From: Beijerinckiaceae bacterium
GTDB lineage: Bacteria; Pseudomonadota; Alphaproteobacteria; Rhizobiales; Beijerinckiaceae
Assembly: GCA_947458675.1 (NCBI GenBank)
Contig: CANHAW010000028.1
Coordinates: 1 to 11,271, forward strand
DNA: 11,271 bases
Direction: 5' to 3'
Part shown: piece by piece, positions 1 through 11,271 of the stretch
How the letters are laid out: every line of letters starts with the position of its first letter
Numbering within the stretch: the first letter of the stretch is position 1
Position numbers and translations under genes: made by a program
The notes under the pieces: model-generated
Database searches by the model: none
Told to the model about the DNA's origin: nothing
The model's input: the letters and a program-made list of their open reading frames with translations, nothing else

Positions 1-1142
1 GCCAACGCCAAGCCATTGCCATTGATCGCCGGCTTTGTGAGAAGCGCGCGATTGATCGCGGCTGTGCATGTCACCAGACTCACCAGCGCCAGTTTTGCCA
101 CCAGCACGACGCCCCAGGCGGTGGACAGAAGATCGCGCGGGCCTAAAAATTGCGTTGTCGCCAAACCGATGCCGCTTGCCAGCAAGATCAGATAGACCGG
201 AGCAATAAGTGCTGAAAAGCGCTGCAAATGGCTGGCAAAATCATCGCGGCGCGTCAGGCGCGCCAACGGCAGAAGCACGCCGGCCCAGACGATGGCCGCC
301 GTGACATGCATGAACGACAGGAATGGCATCAGCTCCACTGGCGCCCATCGGGCAGCATGGCCGGCAATGGCCAGCGACAGGCCCGCGAGCGCCAATGCAA
401 GCAGCGCCATCAGGCGCGCTGCAAGGCCGCCCAGTAACATGGAAAGACCCGCTGCAGCACAGGCGGCGATAGCAATGATGGCAGCCGTGCCGATGGGCAA
501 CCGCAGGCCCGATCGCCATATGGCGCGATCGTTGAGTGCGAGAAGATTTTGCCCATGCGCATCTGCGCCCTGCAATCCGATGGCGATGAAAGCAGCCAGC
601 GCGCCAGTGCCCAGCAGAGCCAGCGCAAAGCCGCGCGGCAGCGGCATGACAAAACTGGCAAAGAGAGCCGCGCCAATGCCGAAGACCAATCCTGCAAGCC
701 AGAAGAAACGTGCGGCAACAAGCGGGGCAGACAGCGACGAGAGATGGATTGTTTGCTCGCGCGTCGGCGCCTGCGCGCCACCGCTGGCCCGTCCCACAGA
801 AAAGACGAGACTGCCGCTGATTGTATGACCATCTTGCGAAATGACGCGCCAGCTCACCAGATGCGAGCCTTGCGCAATATTTGCCGGCACGTCGATGCGC
901 TGATGGGCCATCTTCTCTGTGTTTGACGGCAGCAGCGCGACCGCGCCTTGCGGATCGACATGGGAAATGGCGATGATTTCTACCGGCTCATTGAACAGGA
1001 GTTCAATTTGCTTTGGCTGCTGTTTCAAAAGATCCCCGTCGCCCGGCCTGCTTTCAACAAGATAGGCATGGGCGAAAGCCGGCGCGCCGGACAAAACCAG
1101 CAGGGTCAGAGCCAGAAGCCAGGCGCGCAAGCGGTCGGTCAT
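1..1142 (-). CDS. CopC-CopD fusion, copper resistance/uptake membrane protein (partial, C-terminus off window)
   Basis: The frame is open from an ATG at 1142 to the left edge (380 codons, no stop), so the C-terminus is missing. A signal peptide (residues 1-24, ending AFA) is followed at once by His25. This matches CopC, whose mature N-terminal His is a Cu(II) ligand. The CopC domain spans about 25-117 and contains SQDGHTISG, which supplies the other expected ligands, Asp104 and His106. From about 145 on there are roughly seven hydrophobic segments. These include FMHVTAAIVWAG (about 277-288) and STAWGVVLVAKLAL (about 340-353), which match the CopD membrane domain (PF05425). Known CopCD/YcnJ/PcoCD-type proteins bind periplasmic copper and are thought to pass it across the inner membrane. 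The start overlaps the stop of the upstream DUF1775 gene (ATGA), so translation is probably coupled. Family confidence is high; import versus tolerance cannot be told from sequence. Confidence 0.92.
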   Translation of the reverse strand, partial: MTDRLRAWLLALTLLVLSGAPAFAHAYLVESRPGDGDLLKQQPKQIELLFNEPVEIIAISHVDPQGAVALLPSNTEKMAHQRIDVPANIAQGSHLVSWRVISQDGHTISGSLVFSVGRASGGAQAPTREQTIHLSSLSAPLVAARFFWLAGLVFGIGAALFASFVMPLPRGFALALLGTGALAAFIAIGLQGADAHGQNLLALNDRAIWRSGLRLPIGTAAIIAIAACAAAGLSMLLGGLAARLMALLALALAGLSLAIAGHAARWAPVELMPFLSFMHVTAAIVWAGVLLPLARLTRRDDFASHLQRFSALIAPVYLILLASGIGLATTQFLGPRDLLSTAWGVVLVAKLALVSLVTCTAAINRALLTKPAINGNGLAL

Positions 1143-1669
1143 TTGCGCGGCAAGATCCGGATGGAGGGTGCGGGCGAGGATGTCTCATCTGTCTCTTCCG
1201 TCTCGCTCGCATCGGCGGAAGCTTTGCCGGTCACATCGATCCAGCGCGAAATGCCGGTTTCGCATTCCTGCACGACGGGGAAATAAATCACCTGGCCGGG
1301 CTTTACGGAAGACTCGAGATCCATGGCGAAATGAAATTCGCCTCTTTGCTTGTCTGGCAATCTGCCGCTCCAGGCGATTTCACGCGTCGCACCTTGGCCG
1401 CTTTGCGCAATCGTCCAGCCGTCCTTTGCAGCCGGGCGGATCGCTGTCACTGCTGCGGGTATGCGCATGCGCAGCCGCAATGTCGGGGAGCCGTTGCAGC
1501 CATGGGGAATGCGCAGCGTCGCATCGATTGTGGACGCGAGCGGCACCTGCCGGTTTGCAAAGGAAACATGTGCATAGGCTGGCAAAATGCCCGCAACGGC
1601 CAGTGCTGCCACGAAGCCCATTTGGATGAGCCGCCTGCCTCCGACCGCCGGAATTCTTCCCGTGCCCAT
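1139..1669 (-). CDS. YcnI-like DUF1775 exported copper-binding protein
   Basis: A protein of 176 residues. The signal peptide (about 1-33, ending AYA) places His34 at the mature N-terminus. B. subtilis YcnI binds Cu(II) through an N-terminal His brace aided by acidic residues and a Trp, and His34 and Trp143 (SRWIDV) are plausible counterparts here. The IPHGCNGSPT segment (about 54-63), the KDGW segment (about 82-85) and the QECETG segment (about 135-139) fit the alphaproteobacterial DUF1775 pattern. Cys58 and Cys136 could form a disulphide. The last 25 or so residues are acidic and low in complexity. The start at 1669 is set by a GGGAGG ribosome site at 1675-1680, five bases away. It is the first gene of a two-gene operon with the CopC-CopD fusion, and YcnI-type proteins are commonly encoded beside CopCD/YcnJ. 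It probably acts as a periplasmic copper chaperone; the substrate is inferred from the family and the neighbour. Confidence 0.88.
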   Translation of the reverse strand: MGTGRIPAVGGRRLIQMGFVAALAVAGILPAYAHVSFANRQVPLASTIDATLRIPHGCNGSPTLRLRMRIPAAVTAIRPAAKDGWTIAQSGQGATREIAWSGRLPDKQRGEFHFAMDLESSVKPGQVIYFPVVQECETGISRWIDVTGKASADASETEETDETSSPAPSIRILPRK

Positions 1670-1701
1670 CTGCCCCTCCCGGAATTAGTCTTTTCTACCG
1701 C

Positions 1702-1731
1702 TTGCGACGCCGTTCATCTGCTTATTATACT
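1702..1731 (+). promoter_or_regulatory. Candidate sigma-70-like promoter for the paralogue-ABC unit
   Basis: TTGCGA (1702-1707) and TATACT (1726-1731) are separated by 18 bases and lie about 80 bases before the start at 1810. They match the consensus at 4/6 and 5/6. The -10 overlaps the opposite-strand TATAAT of the copper operon, so the two promoters would compete or be co-regulated. Called by eye only. Confidence 0.3.
1724..1729 (-). promoter_or_regulatory. Candidate -10 box for the copper operon
   Basis: The minus strand reads a perfect TATAAT here, about 55 bases before the DUF1775 start at 1669. No good -35 is present: at 17-base spacing the hexamer at 1747-1752 reads AGTTCC. A perfect -10 with a poor -35 fits an activator-dependent promoter, but I see no clear MerR/CueR-type dyad between the elements. 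Confidence 0.4.
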
Positions 1732-1809
1732 CAACCTGTCCAAGGCGGAACTGCGTCGTGGACCAGCGATAGAGCGGGCGACATGATCCGCGATGGGGAG
1801 GAATGACCG

Positions 1810-3612
1810 ATGAAGACAGCAGTCGCTGGCGCGGCTCTCGCGTCTATTCTTGCAGTCTGGCCGGCTCTTGCGCAGACCCAGCCCTCCCCGAATCTGAGCA
1901 TCGAGCAGCGCAAGGCCATTTATGCGCCCTGGTCGCCAGAGCAAATGGTGCAGCGCCGCAAGGAACAGGGATTGAAAGGGCCGGGCCCGCAGCGTCCCGT
2001 GCCGCCGCCGGCTTTCCCCTCTTATCTGAAAGCGCCGGGCTCCATTGAAGAGCTCATGCCGCAAGCGCGCGCCGCCGCGCGCCAGACCGGCGGGCGAACA
2101 CCTTTGGGCCTTGCTCTGCCCGGCAAGCAAATGGTGATTTTCATCGGCGAAATTCGCGATGCCTGGCCCAATATGATGGTGCAGGAAGCCATCCGCCGTG
2201 CGCTTGATGAGCGGGGCGTGAAAATCCAGATCGTCACAATGTGGGATGTGATGGGGCTCTCCGAGCAGGAATTCCGCCAGGTGCGTGACGCCTTGCGCGA
2301 ATATACGATTGCCGATGGGCAGCGCGAGCTCGACAGTTTCTTCACCACGACCGGCCAGATGGTCGATTTCCGCAAAGGCCGCGACTGGGTGAAGGAGAAA
2401 GATCCGGAGCTGTTTAAAGCGACCTGGCCCGATCTCGTCATTCCTGATCCCAAACTTGCTGCTATTGCGGGGGATTATATCAACCGCTCGTCGGCCAGCG
2501 TTGTTGCATGGCTGGATAAAAATCCGCAGATCGACTGGGTCATGTGGCGTGGCGCCAACCGGCCGAATACGCGCAAGGCCATGAAGCATCATGGCGAAAA
2601 ATTTCTTGGCAATTACACCTATCTCGATCTCTACGATCTGATGAGCCAGGTGCCCTCTTTCCCTGCCGATGTCTGGCGGCAGGTGGAGATGAAAACAATT
2701 GAAACTCTGGCCTTTGTGGAACGCGCTGAAGTCACCGATCCCGAAGGCACGGCATTCGGATATGATCTGAAGGAAAGCGAAGCGCAGGCCTGGGCCGCAG
2801 GCGTTTATCAGCAGGGCCATCTCTATATGTTCCCGGCGCAAGCAACCGGGCGCTTCCCCTATTCGCTTGTCGAATATCCGGTCATGACCAGCAAATATGT
2901 GCCGGGCGTCCTGCCGGAAGTCTCCGGCATTATCGCGTCAACAACAAGCCATGCAGCAACCCATCCGCGCATGGAAATCACCGTCAAGAACGGCAAGATT
3001 TCCGGGATCAAGGGTGGCGGATTATATGGCGAAGGCACGCGCCTTTTGCAGAATTTTCCCGGCACGCAGGATATGCAATGGCCCCATCACGAGAAGAGCG
3101 GCTATTGGTGGCTCTATGAAGCGGGCATGGGTACGAATCCGAAATATTTCAAACATCCGGTCGAAGTGCTCGAAGGCATCAATCTGTCGGAGCGCAATGT
3201 TGCAGGCGTGATCCATTGGGCTTTTGGGGCTGAAGCTGCCATGGGTCCGGACAAGGTCGGCGAATGGTCGGACCAGAGCAAAACATTCTCTGAAAAGAAT
3301 ATGCTGCCGATGGGCCATTCGCTGCATCATCACAATCTTCTGCCAACCATGCAGGTGAAGATCCGCGAACTCGACCAATGGGTGACCTTGCTCGAACATG
3401 GCGCGCTGGCGTCTTTTGAGGATGTCGGCGTGCGCGCTTTGGCGTCGCGCTACGGCAATCCGAATGAGATTCTCCGCCGCGATTATGTGACACCCATTCC
3501 GGGAGTGAATATGCCCGGTTCTTATGATGCTTATGCACGCAATCCCGGCGCGCATTGGGTGAGCTGGGCGAAAAGCATCGAAAGCGGACAATATCAATAT
3601 TTCAAACCATAA
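1810..3612 (+). CDS. Exported M29 aminopeptidase/NicX-like protein, paralogue 1 (function unknown)
   Basis: A protein of 600 residues. The start at 1810 has GGGGAGG at 1795-1801, eight bases upstream. A signal peptide (1-21, ending PALA) predicts export. Residues about 30-105 hold a conserved region (YAPWSPEQM, QRRKEQGL, FPSYLK, EELMPQARAA) that I cannot assign. The C-terminal half resembles the M29 metallopeptidase / 2,5-dihydroxypyridine dioxygenase (NicX) fold: VTDPEGTAFGYD (about 308-319), an NGKISGIKGGG strand, EAGMGTNP (Glu437), SERNVAGVIHWAFG (His469), and MGHSLHHHN (His503, His506, His508). In M29 enzymes the equivalent Glu, His and terminal His/Asp residues bind metal. The usual GTD is GTA here and the terminal HxD is His-rich. 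At 600 residues it is much longer than M29 enzymes (about 400). It could be a peptidase, a ring-cleaving dioxygenase, or a non-catalytic metal binder. Export and paralogy are clear; the fold assignment is moderate and the substrate unknown. Confidence 0.6.
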   Translation: MKTAVAGAALASILAVWPALAQTQPSPNLSIEQRKAIYAPWSPEQMVQRRKEQGLKGPGPQRPVPPPAFPSYLKAPGSIEELMPQARAAARQTGGRTPLGLALPGKQMVIFIGEIRDAWPNMMVQEAIRRALDERGVKIQIVTMWDVMGLSEQEFRQVRDALREYTIADGQRELDSFFTTTGQMVDFRKGRDWVKEKDPELFKATWPDLVIPDPKLAAIAGDYINRSSASVVAWLDKNPQIDWVMWRGANRPNTRKAMKHHGEKFLGNYTYLDLYDLMSQVPSFPADVWRQVEMKTIETLAFVERAEVTDPEGTAFGYDLKESEAQAWAAGVYQQGHLYMFPAQATGRFPYSLVEYPVMTSKYVPGVLPEVSGIIASTTSHAATHPRMEITVKNGKISGIKGGGLYGEGTRLLQNFPGTQDMQWPHHEKSGYWWLYEAGMGTNPKYFKHPVEVLEGINLSERNVAGVIHWAFGAEAAMGPDKVGEWSDQSKTFSEKNMLPMGHSLHHHNLLPTMQVKIRELDQWVTLLEHGALASFEDVGVRALASRYGNPNEILRRDYVTPIPGVNMPGSYDAYARNPGAHWVSWAKSIESGQYQYFKP

Positions 3613-3633
3613 GTGACGCGCGCTCAAAAGCAG

Positions 3634-3639
3634 AGGAGA
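3634..3639 (+). promoter_or_regulatory. Ribosome binding site that fixes the start of paralogue 2
   Basis: AGGAGA lies six bases before the ATG at 3646. An in-frame GTG at 3613, directly after the previous stop, has no such site and would put a charged 11-residue extension before the signal peptide. The ATG at 3646 is therefore preferred. Confidence 0.7.
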
Positions 3640-3645
3640 TGCAAG

Positions 3646-5466
3646 ATGAATCGCAATGCCAATCGGCGCTTTGGGCTGGCGGCCATCGGGTTTGCACTCT
3701 TCGGCCTTTGTCTTTCCGATACGGGCGCCGCTTTGGCGCAGGCCAGCGCGCCGCTTGAGCAGCGCAAATCTGTCTATGCGCCCTGGTCGCCAGATCAAAT
3801 GGCGCAGCGGCGCAAGGAACAGGGATTGATCGGCCCCGGCGCCCAAAGCCCCGTCACTGCGCCAGCCTTTCCGTCTTATCTCAAAAAGCCGACATCAGTC
3901 GAAGAGCTCATGCCGCAGGCGCGCGCTGCTGTGCGTCAATCGGGTGGTCGCACGCCGCTTGGCCTTGTGCTGCCGGGCAAGACCTTGCTGATTGTGGTCG
4001 GCGAAATTCGCGAACCGCGCCCCAATATGATGGTGCAGGAAGCTTTGCGCCGCGCTGTCGAAGAGCGCGGTGCGAAAGCCATTGTCGTGACGACATGGGA
4101 TCTGCTCGGCGTCACCGAAGAGCAATATGTGAAAGTGCGCACGGCTTTGCGTGAATTCACCATTTCGGATGGTCAGCGCGAGCTCGAATATTTCTTCACG
4201 ACGACGGGATTGATGCGCAAGCCGGAAGAAGGCCGCGCCTGGGTTCGCAACAATGATCCCGATCTCTACAAGGCCACATGGCCGGTTCCGAAAATCGACG
4301 ATCCGGAATTAAAAGAGCTTGCCTCTCGCTATCAGCAAGCAATTCCCAAAGCGCTTGTGGCCTATCTCGACAAGAATCCCGGCATTGATTGGGTCGTCTG
4401 GCGCTCGGGCGGGCGCGGCAATACGCGTCGCCTGCTCGATCACCATGCCGACAAATATCTTGGCAGCTACACTTATTTCGATCTCTACGATCTGATGAGT
4501 CAGGTGCCGGCTTTTCCCTCCGACGTTTGGCGTCAGATCGAAACCAAGACAATCGAGTCGATTGCTTTCGTCGATCGTGTTGAAGTCACCGATCCGGAAG
4601 GAACGGCCTTCGGCTATAATGTTGCTGTCGATGAAGCAAAAGCCTGGGCCGAGGGCATTTATCAGCAGGGCCATCTCTACATGTTCCCGGCGCAGGGCAC
4701 CGGGCGCTTCCCCTATTCGAAGATTGAATATCCCCGATTGACCGGCACCTATATCAAGCCGGTGCAGCCGGAAGTGACGGGCATTATCGCATCGACCACA
4801 AGCCATGCGGCATCCCATCCGCGCGTCGAAATCCATGTGACCAAGGGTCTGATCTCAGACATCAAGGGCGGTGGTCTTTATGGCGAAGGCCTGCGGCTTT
4901 TGCAGAATTATCCCGGCACGCGCGACAAGCAATGGCCGATTGCCAGCAAGCCCGGCTATTGGTGGCTCTATGAAGCGGGCATGGGGACGAATCCGAAATA
5001 TTTCAAACATCCCGCCGAAGTGCTCGAAGGCATCAATCTGTCGGAGCGCAATGTTGCCGGCATTGTGCATTGGGCATTTGGGACGGAAGTCGCCATGGGT
5101 CCGGACAAGCCGGGCGATTGGGATGCCCAGACAATTGCCTTCTCCGAGCAGAATGCTCTGCCGATGGGCCATTCCATGCACAATCATAATGTGCTGCCGA
5201 CATTCCAGGTGCGTATCCGCGAACTGGATCAATGGGTCACTTTGGTCGAGCATGGCGGGCTGAAAGCGCTCGAAGATGTCGGCGTGCGCGCGCTGGCGTC
5301 GCGCTATGGCAATCCGGCGCAAATATTGGCACGCGATTATGTCACCGCTCTGCCGGGCATTAATGCACCGGGCTCCTATGATGAATATGCCCGTCATCCG
5401 GGCGCTTATTGGATCAAATGGGCGGAGAGCATCGAGGCCGGCAATTACCCCTTCTTCAAACCGTAG
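3646..5466 (+). CDS. Exported M29 aminopeptidase/NicX-like protein, paralogue 2 (function unknown)
   Basis: A protein of 606 residues whose stop codon at 5464-5466 is only 14 bases before the ABC ATPase start. The signal peptide runs to about residue 31-33 (ending ALAQA). It aligns with paralogue 1 over the whole mature length, by eye at roughly two thirds identity. It shares YAPWSPDQM, QRRKEQGL, GEIREPRPNMMVQEA, VTDPEGTAFGYN, EAGMGTNP (Glu443), SERNVAGIVHWAFG (His475) and MGHSMHNHN. Putative metal residues His509, His512 and His514 are kept, while paralogue 1's His507 is Asn513 here, so that position is probably not a ligand. Several segments match paralogue 1 almost base for base, which indicates a fairly recent tandem duplication, with possible conversion. 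Retention of both copies with their putative active-site residues suggests that both work, perhaps as a heteromer or with different substrates. No function is assigned. Confidence 0.6.
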   Translation: MNRNANRRFGLAAIGFALFGLCLSDTGAALAQASAPLEQRKSVYAPWSPDQMAQRRKEQGLIGPGAQSPVTAPAFPSYLKKPTSVEELMPQARAAVRQSGGRTPLGLVLPGKTLLIVVGEIREPRPNMMVQEALRRAVEERGAKAIVVTTWDLLGVTEEQYVKVRTALREFTISDGQRELEYFFTTTGLMRKPEEGRAWVRNNDPDLYKATWPVPKIDDPELKELASRYQQAIPKALVAYLDKNPGIDWVVWRSGGRGNTRRLLDHHADKYLGSYTYFDLYDLMSQVPAFPSDVWRQIETKTIESIAFVDRVEVTDPEGTAFGYNVAVDEAKAWAEGIYQQGHLYMFPAQGTGRFPYSKIEYPRLTGTYIKPVQPEVTGIIASTTSHAASHPRVEIHVTKGLISDIKGGGLYGEGLRLLQNYPGTRDKQWPIASKPGYWWLYEAGMGTNPKYFKHPAEVLEGINLSERNVAGIVHWAFGTEVAMGPDKPGDWDAQTIAFSEQNALPMGHSMHNHNVLPTFQVRIRELDQWVTLVEHGGLKALEDVGVRALASRYGNPAQILARDYVTALPGINAPGSYDEYARHPGAYWIKWAESIEAGNYPFFKP

Positions 5467-5480
5467 AAAGCAATGCCGCA

Positions 5481-6182
5481 ATGATGCAAGAAGAAAAGAA
5501 GGGCGAGCGGAATGTGCGTCTGGTCGGCGTCTCGAAAACTTACGAGACGCAGGCCGCGCGCATTACAGCGCTTGAAAAAATGAACTGGTCGATTGGCGGT
5601 GGCGAAGCAGCTGCGCTGATGGGCCCCTCGGGCTGCGGCAAGACGACGATTCTCAATCTGCTGGGCGGCATGGATCGCCCAAGTGGGGGCGAGATCTGGG
5701 TCAATGGCGAGAATGTTGCCGCCATGAGCGAGCGCCAGCTCGAAGTCTATAGATTGCGCAAGATCGGTTTCGTCTTTCAGTTTTTCAATCTGATCCCGAG
5801 CCTGTCGGCGATTGAAAATCTCGAATTGCCGATGTTGATGGCCGGTGTCGATGCGCATGAGCGGCGCGCGCGGGCCGAAAATCTGCTGGAGAGTGTCGGC
5901 CTCAAAGCCAAGGGCTTCAAGCGTCCGGAGGAATTGTCAGGCGGCGAACAACAGCGCGTGGCCGTCTGTCTGGCGCTCGTCAACGATCCGCCGATCATTC
6001 TGGCCGATGAGCCGACCGGCAATCTCGATTCGCATAATGCCAAGGTCATTTCCTCGATGCTGATCGATCTTGCCACGAGCCGGGGCAAGACCGTTCTCGT
6101 TGCTTCCCACGATCCCAAAGTCGTGGAGCAATTTCCGCGCGTCTATCACATGCGTGACGGCGCCATCCAGCAGGTGACCTGA
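5481..6182 (+). CDS. ABC transporter ATPase, LolD/MacB/FtsE type
   Basis: A protein of 233 residues when started at 5481 (ATG ATG). All nucleotide-binding motifs are intact: Walker A GPSGCGKTT (48-56), Q-loop Gln100 in FQFFNLIPSLSAIENL, signature LSGGEQQR (152-159), Walker B IILADE with catalytic Glu177, D-loop GNLDS (180-184) and switch His210 (VASHDP). The FQFFNLIPSLSAIENVxLP-like stretch and ADEPTGNLDS are hallmarks of ATPases that pair with FtsX/MacB/LolCE permeases. Its ribosome site is weak (GAAAG at 5466-5470). With the stop of paralogue 2 14 bases upstream, this suggests translational coupling with that gene. The reading frame stays open upstream to 5409, but that ATG lies inside the preceding gene and is unlikely. 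The permease gene follows directly. It is a cytoplasmic, membrane-associated energy source for the next gene product. Confidence 0.92.
   Translation: MMQEEKKGERNVRLVGVSKTYETQAARITALEKMNWSIGGGEAAALMGPSGCGKTTILNLLGGMDRPSGGEIWVNGENVAAMSERQLEVYRLRKIGFVFQFFNLIPSLSAIENLELPMLMAGVDAHERRARAENLLESVGLKAKGFKRPEELSGGEQQRVAVCLALVNDPPIILADEPTGNLDSHNAKVISSMLIDLATSRGKTVLVASHDPKVVEQFPRVYHMRDGAIQQVT
6172..6177 (+). promoter_or_regulatory. Ribosome binding site favouring a TTG start for the permease
   Basis: AGGTGA inside the last codons of the ATPase gene sits six bases before TTG at 6184. The nearest in-frame ATG, at 6205, has only a weak GAAG before it. The TTG start is therefore somewhat better supported, but the choice changes only seven residues. 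Confidence 0.4.
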
Positions 6183-6183
6183 T

Positions 6184-9156
6184 TTGCGCGATCTCGAAGT
6201 CAAAATGAGCGGCCCGCTTCTGGCGGCTTTGTTCCGCATCATCGGGCGTCGCGTCTTTTTGACGTTCTGCCTTGTGTCGTTCCTCGTCGTCTTCCTGCTT
6301 GCCGCCGTCAATGTGACGTCGCGTCATGCCATGCAGCGCTATGTCGACGATCAGGTTCGGCGTGTGCCCTGGGATGTGTCGGTCTATCAGACGGCCGATG
6401 TGCCGCAGGCCGGACAGGTGCATGACAATATTGCCGCCACGCGCGGCATTGCTCAATCCGAGCGACTTTATTTCCTGCGCACGATTCCACCCTTTTCGGT
6501 TCTGCCCGTCATTGACGGCCAGCAATTGCGCACGCCCTGGCTGTCCATTCTCTCTGCCACCGATCCCGCATTGATCCCCCCTGATATGCGCCCGACCGGC
6601 AATGAGGCTGTGATCGTTCTTGTCGGCTCGAAAGGACAGATGGGCGATGCCTTTCTGAAATTGCAGAACCGCAAAACATTTGAATTGGTGGTGCAGCCCA
6701 AGGATCAGACGCTCAAGATCGATGATGAGCATCGTCATCCGCTGGGCGTGCGGACCATTCGCACCGGAATCGATCGTGTCATCCGCATCGATTCCACCGA
6801 GCTCAATCGCTGGTATCTGGAACAGACAAGCTCGCCGACTCTCGTGCCGGAACTGGGCATGATTCTCGTCTTGCCATGGGATCCGGCGTTGATCCTCAAA
6901 TTCGATGCCGTCTCGCGCGGCTTCATGCATGAACATGGCCATGCGGATATTCACGGCACGCCCGGCGAATATTTTCCCGAGATCATTCATCTCGCCCGCC
7001 TCGATCGCCCTTCCATCGTCTCTGGCTGGGACATTGAAGGCTCGCTGACGCGCATCATTGCTGCAGGCAGTCGCCTGACAGATGGCGTGCAGGACCAGAC
7101 GGCGGCTGCTGCGGTCGATCATAATCTCGGCACAATGTTCATTCGCATGCATGAAATCGGCAAGAAGATCGCGCTGATCAGCCTGCTTGTCTCTTTGCCG
7201 CTGCTGCTGATGGCGGGCGTGTTGCTGGCCAATCTCTCTGGTCTTTTGATGCTGAACGAGCGGCGCAAGCTTGGTCTTTTGCGCCTGCGCGGTACGCCGG
7301 GTCATTTGATCGGCCGCACCATGCTCATTTCGATTGCCGCCGGCGGTCTGGCTGGCGGTCTGGCTGGCGGATTTTTCGGCACAATCCTGCCGCTGCTTTT
7401 CTATTACGGCGGCCTGCCGCCCTTGGCCTTGATGGCGAAAATCCAGGATCCCGTAGCGCTTGGTATTTTCATCATTGTCGGCGTGGCGATTGCTCTGCTT
7501 GTCGGGCGTCGTTTTGTGCGCGAAGCCTCGCGTGTCTCGCCCTTGCAGGCCTCGCGTCGTGTCGAGGGTGGCGAATTCGATGGCGCGCAGGTTCGCTTCA
7601 GTTTCCTCCAGGCGATCTGTCTCTTGTTCGGCGGCGCAAAAGTGGCCGGCTGGATCGCCAATCTGTCACTGACCTCTTTCCTGTCTGCTTCATGGGCCAT
7701 CGATCTCGATCGAACGCTTGATTTTGTCGCCTTCCCGCTTTTCATCTACGGATTGGTCACGCTGATTGCCTCGCGCAAGCGTCTGATGTCGGCCTTGATG
7801 ACGCCGGTCGCGCTTCTGCTCGCTGGGCCGCTGCGCGATGTTGCGGTCAAACATATGCAGATCAGGCGCCATCGCGCGGCGAGCTTTCTGCTGATTGTCG
7901 GATTAATGGCAAGTCTTGCGCTTTATCCGACCGTGATGACGGCTGTCTTCGACAATAAGACGGAGCGCGGTGCGCGCATCCAGCTCGGCTCCGATCTGCA
8001 GATTGCCATTAATGCACTCGATCTCATGCCGCCGGAGGCGCAGGCCCGTGGGGGCTTGCGCGACCGTTTGGCCAGTTTGCGCCAGACGCTGGATCCGATG
8101 ATTGCGCGTATCGAGAAAGAGCCTGGCGTGCGCCGCGTGTCTTATCTGGTGGAGGGTCTCGTCGAGGGTCTCTTCATGCCAGATCGCGGCTTCTCCGGAT
8201 TGCCGATCTATCTTGTGCCCGAGCCCGAGCGGCATTTGGCAGCGACATATTCAGAGCCTGCTCTGGGCATGGGCGGGGATTTCGAAGCCACGCTGAGACG
8301 CCTGTCGCAGAGCCGGATTCTCGCTTCTGCGCCGGTCGGTGCTTTCTACAAAAAGGCGCTTGATGAGCCCATGCCTGTGGGGCGCATGACAGATGGCAAG
8401 CTGCAGCGCATGCCTTATGGCGGCGCTCTGCATTTCCTGCCGGGCGTGCCCTTGCGCACGGTCAATGATCGCGAAGGTTTCGTCGCCGCGCGTGTCGATT
8501 ATCTCAATCATCTTTTCACCAATGCGCCCTATCTCGTCGGCGCGCAGAATGAGCGGGCGCTGGCCGATCTCGATATTCTTGTGCCGCGCATTGTGATTTC
8601 GGTGGCAGCGCAGCGGGGAACCGATCCCGCAGATCTGCGCCGTCGCGTGCTGGCTGCATCTGGTGTCGAGCCGCTGGATACGCGCGACATCAGTTCGGAA
8701 ATGGCGCGGCTGGGCAGCGACATGTATATTTATCTCGCTCGGCAAAATGTGCAGATCTATCTGCTCGGCGGCTTTCTTCTGGCTTTGATCGGCATTTATG
8801 CAGTGGCCTATGCCAATTATCTCGAAGATCGACGAACGCTTGGCCTGTTGCGCATTCGCGGTGCGGGTCCAGCCGATGTCGTGCGTTTCTTCCTGCCCAA
8901 TGTTTTGGGGCCGTCCATTGTCGGTCTTGTGATTGGCGGGGGTGTTGCGCTGCTGGTCGGCTTTGGCATTACCAAGCTGATCTGGGAGTTGCGGCAATTG
9001 CAGACCGTGCTGAATTATCTGCCGACACGGCTTGCTGTCTCATGGGAGACAGGGGCGGTTGCCGCCATTCTGGCGCTTGTTCTGGGCGGCATTGTCTTTG
9101 TTTTTGCGCGCTGGATTTTTGCGCGCACGGCCCGCCAAGGTTTGCTGGAAGGCTGA
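6184..9156 (+). CDS. Large FtsX-like (type VII) ABC permease with two FtsX modules and a His-rich periplasmic motif
   Basis: A protein of 990 residues from a TTG start (983 from ATG 6205), one base after the ATPase stop. The first transmembrane segment is at about 22-44, then a large periplasmic domain at about 45-325. Three segments follow at about 328-357, 380-410 and 424-440. A linker with hydrophobic segments (about 505-550) leads to another segment at about 564-588, a second periplasmic domain (about 590-850), and three closing segments at about 856-879, 902-928 and 956-979. Two copies of a cytosolic motif, ERRKLGLLRLRGTPG (359-373) and DRRTLGLLRIRGAGP (882-896), mark the two FtsX modules and probably contact the ATPase. 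The single chain carrying both modules would supply both halves of the transporter. Residues 249-257 read HEHGHADIH, a possible metal site. Type VII permeases export or extract lipoproteins or drive periplasmic partners; here the partner is probably one or both upstream exported paralogues. Substrate unknown. Confidence 0.88.
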   Translation: MRDLEVKMSGPLLAALFRIIGRRVFLTFCLVSFLVVFLLAAVNVTSRHAMQRYVDDQVRRVPWDVSVYQTADVPQAGQVHDNIAATRGIAQSERLYFLRTIPPFSVLPVIDGQQLRTPWLSILSATDPALIPPDMRPTGNEAVIVLVGSKGQMGDAFLKLQNRKTFELVVQPKDQTLKIDDEHRHPLGVRTIRTGIDRVIRIDSTELNRWYLEQTSSPTLVPELGMILVLPWDPALILKFDAVSRGFMHEHGHADIHGTPGEYFPEIIHLARLDRPSIVSGWDIEGSLTRIIAAGSRLTDGVQDQTAAAAVDHNLGTMFIRMHEIGKKIALISLLVSLPLLLMAGVLLANLSGLLMLNERRKLGLLRLRGTPGHLIGRTMLISIAAGGLAGGLAGGFFGTILPLLFYYGGLPPLALMAKIQDPVALGIFIIVGVAIALLVGRRFVREASRVSPLQASRRVEGGEFDGAQVRFSFLQAICLLFGGAKVAGWIANLSLTSFLSASWAIDLDRTLDFVAFPLFIYGLVTLIASRKRLMSALMTPVALLLAGPLRDVAVKHMQIRRHRAASFLLIVGLMASLALYPTVMTAVFDNKTERGARIQLGSDLQIAINALDLMPPEAQARGGLRDRLASLRQTLDPMIARIEKEPGVRRVSYLVEGLVEGLFMPDRGFSGLPIYLVPEPERHLAATYSEPALGMGGDFEATLRRLSQSRILASAPVGAFYKKALDEPMPVGRMTDGKLQRMPYGGALHFLPGVPLRTVNDREGFVAARVDYLNHLFTNAPYLVGAQNERALADLDILVPRIVISVAAQRGTDPADLRRRVLAASGVEPLDTRDISSEMARLGSDMYIYLARQNVQIYLLGGFLLALIGIYAVAYANYLEDRRTLGLLRIRGAGPADVVRFFLPNVLGPSIVGLVIGGGVALLVGFGITKLIWELRQLQTVLNYLPTRLAVSWETGAVAAILALVLGGIVFVFARWIFARTARQGLLEG
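7345..7368 (+). repeat. Two perfect 12-bp tandem units inside the permease gene
   Basis: GGTCTGGCTGGC occurs twice in direct succession and encodes GLAGGLAG within a predicted membrane helix. It is in frame, so slippage by one unit would add or remove four residues without a frameshift. Probably incidental. Confidence 0.6.
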
Positions 9157-9157
9157 T

Positions 9158-9700
9158 CTAGCGGCTGACAGCCGCCAGCCAGCGTTTCATCAATTCGATC
9201 TCGCCTTGCTGATGGGCGATGATCTCCTGCGCGAGGCGGCGAACCTCCGGGCGCAATCCGTCTTTCAGCAGAACCTTCGACATTTCGATGGCGCCCTCAT
9301 GATGGGGAATCATCTGGGCGAGAAAATCGCGGTCGGGATCGCCGGTCAGCGGAACCGCCGACATATTGGCGCTCATGGTATTTTGCGCCGCCTGCAAAGC
9401 GCGCGATGCTTCCATGCCGCGCACGGGGTCAAGCTGCGTTGTCGCGTTTGAAGGCATGGCAGGCGATGACAGGCCGCTTTGGGAAAAATGTTCCTGCAAT
9501 GCTGCAATCAAACGCTCATTGCCTCTTTGCGTTTCGGCACGTGCCTGGCGAATTTCGCGCGCCAGCTCATCCATCCGGCGCTCGATTCGGGCTGTCTCGG
9601 AGCCGCTGTCGGCGCAGCCGGCCAGCATGCTGAGGGCGATCAGGCAGAGAGCGGCTTTCGCCATGCGGGCGCGGCCCGGCTTGCCAAAAGAAAATTTCAT
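9158..9700 (-). CDS. DUF305 lipoprotein with N-terminal coiled coil
   Basis: A protein of 180 residues starting at 9700, preceded by GGGGAGGA at 9705-9712. A lipoprotein signal peptide ends in LAGC with Cys29 as the predicted lipidated residue. Residues about 35-71 are rich in charged residues with heptad-like spacing and probably form a coiled coil. The DUF305 domain spans about 120-176: GDPDRDFLAQMIPHHEGAIEMS followed by IIAHQQGEIELMKRWL. The paired His133-His134 and the second helix motif are the conserved core of this four-helix, ferritin-like family. DUF305 proteins are often found with copper and other metal-handling genes, but their biochemical role is not settled. The gene is convergent with the permease gene, with one base between stops. 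An upstream in-frame ATG at 9781 has no ribosome site and would bury the signal peptide. Confidence 0.88.
   Translation of the reverse strand: MKFSFGKPGRARMAKAALCLIALSMLAGCADSGSETARIERRMDELAREIRQARAETQRGNERLIAALQEHFSQSGLSSPAMPSNATTQLDPVRGMEASRALQAAQNTMSANMSAVPLTGDPDRDFLAQMIPHHEGAIEMSKVLLKDGLRPEVRRLAQEIIAHQQGEIELMKRWLAAVSR
9161..9175. other. Perfect inverted repeat at the convergent gene ends
   Basis: GCGGCT-GAC-AGCCGC forms a six-base stem with a three-base loop, in the last codons of the DUF305 gene and just past the permease stop. There is no T-run on either strand, so it is not a classic intrinsic terminator. It might stabilise 3' ends or simply be chance. Confidence 0.25.
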
Positions 9701-9733
9701 CCCGTCCTCCCCGCATCGTCTTTTGCTCCCGCA

Positions 9734-9762
9734 ATCATAGCTGGAGCCGGCGCCGGCGTCGA
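9734..9762 (-). promoter_or_regulatory. Candidate promoter of the DUF305 gene
   Basis: On the minus strand TCGACG (9757-9762) and TATGAT (9734-9739) are 17 bases apart, matching the sigma-70 consensus at 4/6 and 5/6. They lie about 35 bases before the start at 9700. The spacer contains the perfect palindrome GCCGGCGCCGGC (9746-9757), which could be an operator. Confidence 0.4.
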
Positions 9763-9842
9763 ATGGGCGCGCCATCGTCATGCAACGTCCCTAGCCTGGC
9801 TGCGCGGCTCTGTCTAAACTTGCGCAAAAGCGGGAGGACAAA

Positions 9843-10688
9843 ATGGATCTCGAACATATGCCGGGCCGTGGGCGCCTGCAGGGCAAGGTCGCGCTGGTGA
9901 TCGGCGGCGGCTCGGTGGGGCCGGGCTGGGGCAATGGCAAAGCGGCTGCTTTCGTCTATGCGCGCGAAGGCGCGAAGGTCGCCGTTGTCGATTGGCGGCA
10001 CGAGGCGGCGCAAGAAACGGTCGATCTGATTGCGCAAGCCGGAGGAAATGCAGCCGCTCTTTCAGGCGATATGACGAGCGAGGCGGATGTGGCGCGCGTG
10101 GTCGAGGAAACTCTGGCGCTCTATGGCCGCATCGACATTCTGCACAATAATGTCGGGGGTTCGGGCACGGGCAAACATCTCGGCAATATTACGCTTGAGG
10201 ATTGGAACCTCACTCTCGCGCGCAATCTCACCAGCGCCATGCTGACATGCCGCGCCTGTGTGCCGCCGATGGAAGCGCAGGGCGGCGGTTCCATCATCAA
10301 TATTTCGTCCATTTCCTCGCTGCGCTATCTCGGCGTGCCGACGACGGTCTATTCGACAGCCAAAGGCGCGCTGAACGAATTCACCAAAAATATTGCCGCC
10401 CATTATGCGCCCAAGGGCATTCGCGCCAATGCCGTTTTGCCCGGCTATATCGATACGCCCTTCATCAATCGCAAGGTTGGTGGGCGACCCAATTACGAAT
10501 GGAAAGGTTTTTCCAGCGCGGAAGACTATTCGCAGGCGCGCAATCAGATCATTCCCATGCGGCGCATGGGAACAGGTTTCGATGTCGCTTATGCCGCGCT
10601 GTTTTTTGCCAGCGATGAAAGCGCCTATGTGACCGGGCAAATGCTTGTCGTCGATGGCGGCGTGACCTCCGTTTGCGCCGGTGTGTGA
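9843..10688 (+). CDS. Short-chain dehydrogenase/reductase, classical, NAD-type
   Basis: A protein of 281 residues. The start at 9843 follows GGGAGG (9832-9837). The Rossmann nucleotide loop is the longer variant GGGSVGPGWGNGKA (21-34) instead of the usual TGxxxGIG. Asp50 at the end of the second strand (VAVVDWR) predicts NAD(H) preference. The HNNVGG motif is at about 101-106. The catalytic tetrad is Asn128, Ser156, Tyr170 and Lys174 (YSTAK), and the typical VTGQMLVVDGG closes the fold. It is a cytosolic oxidoreductase; the substrate cannot be read from sequence. It is followed after 12 bases by a second SDR gene, so the two probably form an operon for a catabolic or biosynthetic step. No promoter in the 9701-9842 gap convinced me for this direction. 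Confidence 0.9.
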   Translation: MDLEHMPGRGRLQGKVALVIGGGSVGPGWGNGKAAAFVYAREGAKVAVVDWRHEAAQETVDLIAQAGGNAAALSGDMTSEADVARVVEETLALYGRIDILHNNVGGSGTGKHLGNITLEDWNLTLARNLTSAMLTCRACVPPMEAQGGGSIINISSISSLRYLGVPTTVYSTAKGALNEFTKNIAAHYAPKGIRANAVLPGYIDTPFINRKVGGRPNYEWKGFSSAEDYSQARNQIIPMRRMGTGFDVAYAALFFASDESAYVTGQMLVVDGGVTSVCAGV

Positions 10689-10700
10689 GAGAGCGAGCCC

Positions 10701-11271
10701 ATGATATCGATCGATCTGCAAGGCATATCTTGTCTGGTGACAGGGGCCGCAAGCGGCCTGGGGCGCGCCATGGCGCTGGGCCTGTTGCGTAGCGGTGCAA
10801 ATGTGACAGCGCTCGATGTCAGCGAGCAGGGCCTGTCGGCTTTGCGCGCCGATGCAGGTGCAGATGCCGCGCGATTGCTCGGCATGATCGCCGATATTCG
10901 CCGTGCAGATGATTGCGCGCGCGTGGTCGATGCAGCGATTTCACGTTTCGGCCATGTCGGTGTTCTGGTCAATTGCGCCGGGCTCGGCATGCCGCATGTG
11001 CGCCATGATTATCTCCGCCAGCCCGTTCGCTTCTGGGAGATCGACGAGCAGAAATGGCGCGATCTGGTCGATGTCAATCTGACCGGGACTTTTCTTCTGT
11101 CGCGCGCATTGGCCCCGCAGATGATCGCGCGCGGCTGGGGCCGCATCGTCAATGTCACGACAAGTTTCTCGACCATGATCCGCGGCGGCAACATGCCCTA
11201 TGGCGCAACAAAAGCCGCTTTGGAGGCGGCCTCCCATGCCTTTGCGCAAGATCTTTCCGGCACTGGCGTCA
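10701..11271 (+). CDS. Short-chain dehydrogenase/reductase, second of pair (partial, C-terminus off window)
   Basis: The frame is open from ATG 10701 to the right edge (190 codons), so substrate-binding and C-terminal parts are missing. Visible motifs are TGAASGLG (14-21) for the cofactor loop, Asp39 ending the second strand (ALDVS, NAD-type), NCAG (91-94), Asn126 in DVNLTG, and YGATK with Tyr167 and Lys171. The position where the catalytic Ser usually sits, 13 residues before the Tyr, is Thr154, with Ser155 next to it (NVTTS). An insertion at about 97-113 (MPHVRHDYLRQPVRFW) lengthens the region before the fourth helix. The ribosome site is weak (GAGAGAG at 10686-10692), consistent with coupling to the upstream SDR 12 bases away. 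Confidence 0.88.
   Translation, partial: MISIDLQGISCLVTGAASGLGRAMALGLLRSGANVTALDVSEQGLSALRADAGADAARLLGMIADIRRADDCARVVDAAISRFGHVGVLVNCAGLGMPHVRHDYLRQPVRFWEIDEQKWRDLVDVNLTGTFLLSRALAPQMIARGWGRIVNVTTSFSTMIRGGNMPYGATKAALEAASHAFAQDLSGTGV

Follow-up and report, generated by a model that had tools for sequence, protein, structure and literature searches.

Co-inheritance of probably exported metalloenzyme-like proteins with an FtsX-type ABC transporter in some uncultured bacteria suggests that the transporter works them outside the inner membrane

Mechanotransmission is established for the type VII superfamily of ABC transporters. In 2025, YbbAP-TesA of E. coli showed that a type VII ABC transporter can serve a periplasmic enzyme (PMC12646458); lipid handling has been proposed for a system with the YbbAP-type layout. 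NicX is a 2,5-dihydroxypyridine 5,6-dioxygenase, a non-haem iron dioxygenase whose iron ligands are given as H265, S302, H318 and D320 (PMC7910607). The results of this study suggest that, in some uncultured bacteria, one or two probably exported, probably metal-binding proteins from an uncharacterised family are co-inherited with a transporter, which may work them outside the inner membrane. The basis obtained here consists of co-inheritance, gene order, export signals, profile kinship with NicX, invariant residues of metal-binding type and a YbbP-like hydropathy layout.

The window, that is, the whole stretch of 11,271 bases that was analysed, comes from contig C28 of a genome that is 77% complete. 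At positions 1810-9156, a single strand encodes, in this order, two paralogues that carry signal peptides, an ATPase of the LolD type and a double-FtsX permease of 990 residues, with intergenic distances of 33, 14 and 1 bases in the 5' to 3' direction. This gene set, the single strand and the three gaps had been proposed in the initial annotation, and all were confirmed by the ORF calls. The second paralogue likely starts at the ATG that follows a GAGGAG ribosome site, which gives the 33-base gap, and the permease starts at TTG 6184 or ATG 6205. The features of the unit are as follows.

1702..1731, + strand: sigma-70-like candidate promoter TTGCGA-18-TATACT, 78 bases upstream of the first gene
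1810..3612, + strand: first NicX-like exported protein, 600 aa, with a signal peptide
3118..3333, + strand: segment of the first copy with the predicted metal site (E437, H469, H503, H506, H508), from the alignment with NicX and from invariance
3646..5466, + strand: second NicX-like exported protein, likely start ATG 3646; the ORF opens with GTG at 3613
5481..6182, + strand: LolD/FtsE-type ABC ATPase, likely start ATG 5481
6184..9156, + strand: double-FtsX permease of 990 aa, predicted to have ten transmembrane helices
6310..7167, + strand: permease residues 43-328, TM1-TM2, the first of its two large periplasmic domains, membrane side predicted
7939..8754, + strand: permease residues 586-857, TM7-TM8, the second of its two large periplasmic domains, membrane side predicted

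A species-genome search for close relatives returned 18 loci, all in genomes recorded as alphaproteobacterial metagenome assemblies, and the gene order was kept across these loci and the window as far as the contigs extend. A NicX-like gene was followed directly by the ATPase gene in 19/19 loci (the 18 relatives and the window), and the permease gene came next in 16 of them (partial in L019); the remaining 3 contigs stop before the permease. In the host genus, where all candidates in 51 genomes were scored, the paralogue family was found in 19 genomes and the permease in 18; all 18 have both, and the permease never occurred without the paralogue family. In the paralogue-only exception, G683, the contig breaks off within the ATPase gene, which can be seen in the counterpart locus L013. 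Both families lay on one contig in 16 of the 18 co-carriers and on different contigs in G747 and G784, as contig breaks would give. In a sample of the family (397 genomes), a strong paralogue match was obtained in 16 genomes and a permease match at E 1e-60 in 15, all within those 16; 28 genomes were tallied with paralogue matches, and the 12 weak ones pointed to a separate 400-residue family. In a sample of the phylum (398 genomes), each family was found once, in the genome of the window. In the family and phylum surveys, the two or three highest-ranked first-look candidates of each genome were scored. Most genomes of the genus and family surveys are those that also yielded the 18 loci, so that these samples are not independent; in addition, the carriers are related to one another. 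The unit is rare and patchy, and it was not found split wherever contigs gave a view. The claim that the paralogues belong with the transporter is supported by gene order and co-occurrence, and homologues of the paralogues were found together with ABC genes, not away from them, so that in the host genus the claim survives the first refuting condition set by the initial annotation. Chance or an annotation artefact as the source of the linkage was ruled out by the recurrence of order and co-occurrence.

More distant members were examined in protein tables, in which the link was drawn from equal contig sizes among the entries listed and not from sequence. The paralogue family matched 425 and 300 protein clusters in two overlapping searches (best 120 of each listed), and the tables compared contained the best 120 of 425 paralogue clusters and the best 120 of 282 permease clusters. 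The size of the longest contig was equal between paralogue and permease clusters in 15 of the 119 listed paralogue clusters with a contig size (14 of 64 at 5 kb or more), compared with 0.77 on average and at most 5 over 1000 trials of a jittered-size control (0.25 and 3 at 5 kb or more); a third search gave one further equal-size match among 38 new paralogue clusters. One such pair, P0109/P0216, was named Usitatibacter, a betaproteobacterial genus, in both tables among the matches listed, and both members had a longest contig of 9,466 bases. These equal contig sizes among the matches listed suggest that the paralogue-permease pair reaches beyond alphaproteobacteria, into Usitatibacter. The paralogue clusters listed also named Woeseiaceae and a gammaproteobacterium, for which no pairing with the permease was seen among the matches listed.

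The paralogues were traced through two lineages in a tree built from 33 copies and three outgroups, two of which have long branches: lineage I (the window, L007-L012 and L014) and lineage II (L013 and L015-L024). The first and second copies of lineage I grouped together, apart from the copies of lineage II. Forcing all first copies together, a group named after the tree had been seen, cost 45 log units (p-AU 0.0004), and one ancient duplication as the origin of the twins was thus rejected under the tree model. The copies would have doubled twice, or gene conversion within lineages may have mimicked this; the two would look the same. The twin arrangement noted at the outset is present in the window and is not essential, since L007 and L010 have a single copy. 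The only copy of L014 (5783-7567) has an in-frame TAG, the first copy of L015 (3-929), at a contig end, looks degenerate, and L012 is cut by a contig end. By eye, positions 2930-3390 of L010 hold a possible remnant of the start of a lost first copy. One copy can suffice and doubling recurs, and the partner may perhaps be dispensable in L007, L010 and L014. With respect to transcription, 1702..1731 is the sole promoter-like site on the + strand within 1600-9300. Since the scan gave 4 such sites in total as compared to 3.6 in shuffles, i.e. no excess, support for the candidate comes from conservation: the -35 and -10 regions were alike at this position in 7 lineage I loci including the window, as judged by eye from the alignment. 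This site is the likely promoter of the unit.

The two paralogues are identical at 398 of 582 positions (68%), and each carries by eye a Sec-type signal peptide with an AxA site. Among 148 full-length homologues, a hydrophobic segment preceded the conserved start of the mature protein in 145, and AxA was present there in 119, a pattern which fits export of the family. Neither paralogue matched a family in Pfam or NCBIfam, including the GDSL hydrolase family of Pfam, and PHROGs gave no match for either paralogue or for the permease. An MHB Pfam match (E 0.00064) in 1 of 29 members of A1 was taken as chance, and sequence searches of solved structures with P0001, A1, A2 (plus one A2 protein) and P0004 returned nothing credible. 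Kinship was obtained through A2, an uncharacterised NicX-like family of ca. 400 residues from the same genus (11 proteins, from L042-L050, L052 and L053), to which the weak paralogue matches of the family sample had pointed. In profile comparisons, the paralogues matched A2 at 97%, and A2 matched NicX with seven relatives at 97%; the paralogues matched NicX directly at 30-38%, and controls reached at most 0.2% (reversed), 1.6% (column-shuffled, 60 trials) and 0.7% (a permease control profile). The A2 match spans residues 306-557 of the first paralogue, with the N-terminal half outside it. These profile results support the assignment of the C-terminal half of the paralogues to the NicX superfamily via this intermediate family.

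The A2 proteins share with the paralogues an NPK motif and residues aligned with E437, H469, H506 and H508; they differ in having no signal peptide by eye and in retaining HxHxD, in an E/H/HxHxD site. Two A2 members gave no credible Pfam match, one gave no credible NCBIfam match, and a plasmid search with an A2 protein gave no match. By eye, A2 genes adjoin what look like genes for TctC-type or other solute-binding proteins, and in genome G483 an A2 gene lies ca. 30 kb from the unit. Of the earlier label M29/NicX-like, the NicX part was supported through A2 and the M29 part was not: profile probabilities against five M29 sequences were at most 4.4%, and Peptidase_M29 (PF02073) matched neither the paralogues nor anything else in the genome of the window. 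NicX and M29 profiles matched each other at 11-20%. A distant NicX homologue, L098, has the motifs ELGIGMNP, IHLGFG and HQD, which resemble the E/H/H/D residue set of M29, and not NicX's own.

In a joint alignment, H265, S302, H318 and D320 of NicX align with E437, A471, H508 and L510 of the first paralogue, and the NicX iron ligand set is not kept (E, A, H and L). E437 was present in 160/160 homologues, and H469, H503, H506 and H508 each in 159/160, with one gap apiece. At the D320 position the 160 homologues have L (100), V (24), T (20), H (10), M (4), Q (1) and a gap (1), and Asp was found in 0/159. H337 and H381 are also invariant among the 160, as are many other residues; therefore, invariance by itself does not single out the predicted metal site, which was named from the alignment. 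The HxH stretch has the most uncertain register of the alignment; it came out alike in three alignments, but a shift by two would put H508 on D320. As aligned in either register, the NicX ligand set is lost and a Glu/His set is invariant. The paralogues are, on this reading of the alignments, probably metal-binding. Since the Asp ligand of NicX is missing, catalysis by them is a guess.

The ATPase matched ABC_tran of Pfam (E 5.4e-32) and has Walker A, LSGGE and the H-loop by pattern and Walker B (LADEPTGNLD) by eye. Its best NCBIfam match was LolD, at 222 bits against a cut-off of 308, and it fell under the cut-off of all 25 models listed. Two FtsX stretches (PF02687, cut-off 25.5) were detected in the permease, one at about 34-35.3 bits and the other, under the cut-off, at 24 bits (E 5.3e-5), and its two halves are homologous to each other at a profile probability of 83%. 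By family criteria, the ATPase and the FtsX-type permease would constitute a type VII ABC transporter. Hydropathy averaged over 28 permease homologues gave ten peaks with overlapping windows merged; a similar scan recovered nine of the ten helices of YbbP. A span of 286 residues separates peaks 1 and 2, and one of 272 residues peaks 7 and 8. The most conserved cytoplasmic stretches are residues 348-379 (helices 2-3) and 877-906 (helices 8-9), and conservation is slightly lower in the periplasmic domains (0.48) than in the helices (0.55). YbbP is described with periplasmic domains and coupling helices at places matching these domains and conserved cytoplasmic loops (PMC12646458). Against a LolC profile, the permease gave weak probabilities of 41% as a whole, 66% for the N-terminal half and 11% for the C-terminal half, and a search of solved structures with A5 found LolF/LolC at E 0.18 or worse. 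Against YbbP, represented by a single sequence, the profile probability was at most 2.6%. Membership of the YbbP family by sequence was not adopted, and, since no such kinship was detected, likeness of layout is claimed instead of membership.

The genes flanking the unit in the window point to copper.

3..1142, - strand: CopC-CopD copper protein, running off the window; relatives in 6/18 loci, all lineage I
1139..1669, - strand: DUF1775/YcnI-type protein; relatives in 6/18 loci
9158..9781, - strand: DUF305/CopM-type lipoprotein, convergent with the unit; relatives in 6/18 loci

The CopC-CopD gene is a neighbour, outside the core of the unit. A gene further out recurs in 6 loci and is DUF1007 where tested, in L007. 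YcnI, a DUF1775 protein, is reported to contain a copper-binding domain (PMC8424229). At 60 bits, 0/11 lineage II loci had copper neighbours, several of these loci having short or missing flanks, and genes of the cupin, luciferase-like or solute-binding kind occur in some lineage II flanks. The lineage II loci without copper genes where flanks are present weaken the case for copper as the core function; copper is a clue to the metal and does not define a function. TctC-type receptor genes were seen in the outer flanks of both lineages (L010 10638-11672, L011 12409-13344, L014 14243-15373 and L020 675-1838), with a TctC-type Pfam match over the cut-off in L020 and just under it in L014.

Partnership between the NicX-like proteins and the transporter is likely; how the two work together is less settled. 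FtsX is small, with 4 helices. Under control of the FtsEX kind, nothing would be moved and the ATP cycle of the transporter would switch the periplasmic metalloenzymes on and off. ATP binding is described as driving the periplasmic activator in FtsEX-EnvC (PMC12505981), and the signal peptides on both NicX-like proteins agree with such control, but the ten predicted helices and the periplasmic domains of 286 and 272 residues match the layout of a system for which lipid handling has been proposed, and we regard this reading as unlikely. Equally unlikely is a pump of the MacAB or Lol kind that expels a compound or releases a lipoprotein, the NicX-like proteins acting separately on the same compound. 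Its attraction lies in the LolD match of the ATPase (222 of 308 bits, under the cut-off) and in the weak resemblance of the permease to LolC/LolF, while no HlyD/MacA adaptor or outer-membrane factor was present among the nine window proteins scanned, and a single fused permease takes the place of a LolC-LolE pair.

The lineage I flanks with CopC-CopD, DUF1775 (YcnI-type) and CopM-type genes, together with the four invariant His of the predicted site, would suit copper handling, in which the exported, His-rich proteins would act on copper by binding or oxidising it and the role of the transporter would lie in copper homeostasis; the 0/11 count in lineage II, even with several flanks short or missing, tells against this, and we consider it improbable. 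Mere co-transcription, i.e. shared regulation with no physical or substrate link, is very improbable: one likely promoter and short gaps are what it would give, but order and co-occurrence persist in two lineages whose flanks differ, and probably in another class.

Since the ingredients are those of YbbAP-TesA with another enzyme family, extraction followed by metal-dependent processing is favoured, and we give about even odds to a YbbAP-TesA-like machine that works in this mode with an unrelated metalloenzyme. The unit would then encode a type VII ABC machine together with a periplasmic metalloenzyme dedicated to it. From family and architecture, the motor would consist of two ATPase subunits and a pseudodimeric ten-helix permease, and ATP binding would close the two large periplasmic domains. 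The NicX-like proteins would dock on the transporter, which would extract the substrate, and its processing by these proteins may take place at a metal site that is unlike that of NicX and consists of one Glu and several His. Points that speak against this reading are that no sequence kinship of the permease with YbbP was detected, that the direct match to NicX reached 30-38% and the A2 match left out the N-terminal half, that the Asp ligand is lost, that L007, L010 and L014 have a single or damaged copy, and that the periplasmic domains are a little less conserved than the helices. A more specific version, which we hold to be rather unlikely, pairs an ATP-driven extractor with two exported metal-dependent oxygenases, possibly loaded with copper via the CopC/YcnI/CopM-type neighbours in one lineage. 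A lipophilic aromatic or a lipid would be lifted from the inner membrane to the Glu/His site derived from the NicX fold, and each permease half would hold one diverged copy. One diverged copy per pseudosymmetric half would explain why the gene pair apparently arose twice independently. The NicX-like proteins and the permease are a named pair to test, and the unit gives a first genetic context for an exported protein family that had no Pfam or NCBIfam match here.

With LolCDE, MacAB-TolC and FtsEX-EnvC, the unit shares the ATPase family and the FtsX-type permease domain. It differs from LolCDE in having one 990-residue permease, whereas LolC and LolE are separate proteins of 399 and 414 residues; from MacAB-TolC in that no HlyD-type adaptor was among the nine window proteins scanned; and from FtsEX-EnvC in that no EnvC/amidase or peptidoglycan hydrolase family was found in the unit. 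Profile kinship in the C-terminal half and the alignment of H318 with H508 are shared with NicX, but the paralogues have a signal peptide, are ca. 250 residues longer and are tied to an ABC transporter, with E437, A471 and L510 in place of H265, S302 and D320 and with further invariant H469, H503 and H506. In YbbAP-TesA, as here by hydropathy, a ten-helix double-FtsX permease has periplasmic domains at TM1-2 and TM7-8 and a TM5-6 linker, and both systems also combine an ABC ATPase with a periplasmic enzyme whose gene is a neighbour. TesA, however, belongs to the GDSL serine hydrolases, and its gene lies on the strand opposite to ybbAP, whereas the NicX-like proteins, often two, are encoded on the same strand, upstream of the ATPase. 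Two short-chain dehydrogenase genes follow the unit in a row (window 9843-11270), and another reductase gene, ybbO, adjoins tesA-ybbAP in E. coli, a parallel that is probably coincidence. A search of open-licence papers found none that describes a NicX-like protein as the partner of an FtsX transporter and none naming both NicX and FtsX. The initial annotation had stated that no described system with such a pairing was known; this stands for the enzyme family and not for the type of pairing, for which YbbAP-TesA is a precedent (PMC12646458). What is new here is the enzyme family, the transporter-enzyme pairing being already known from YbbAP-TesA. If another enzyme family, unrelated to TesA, is tied to a transporter with this layout, the design would seem to be a general one.
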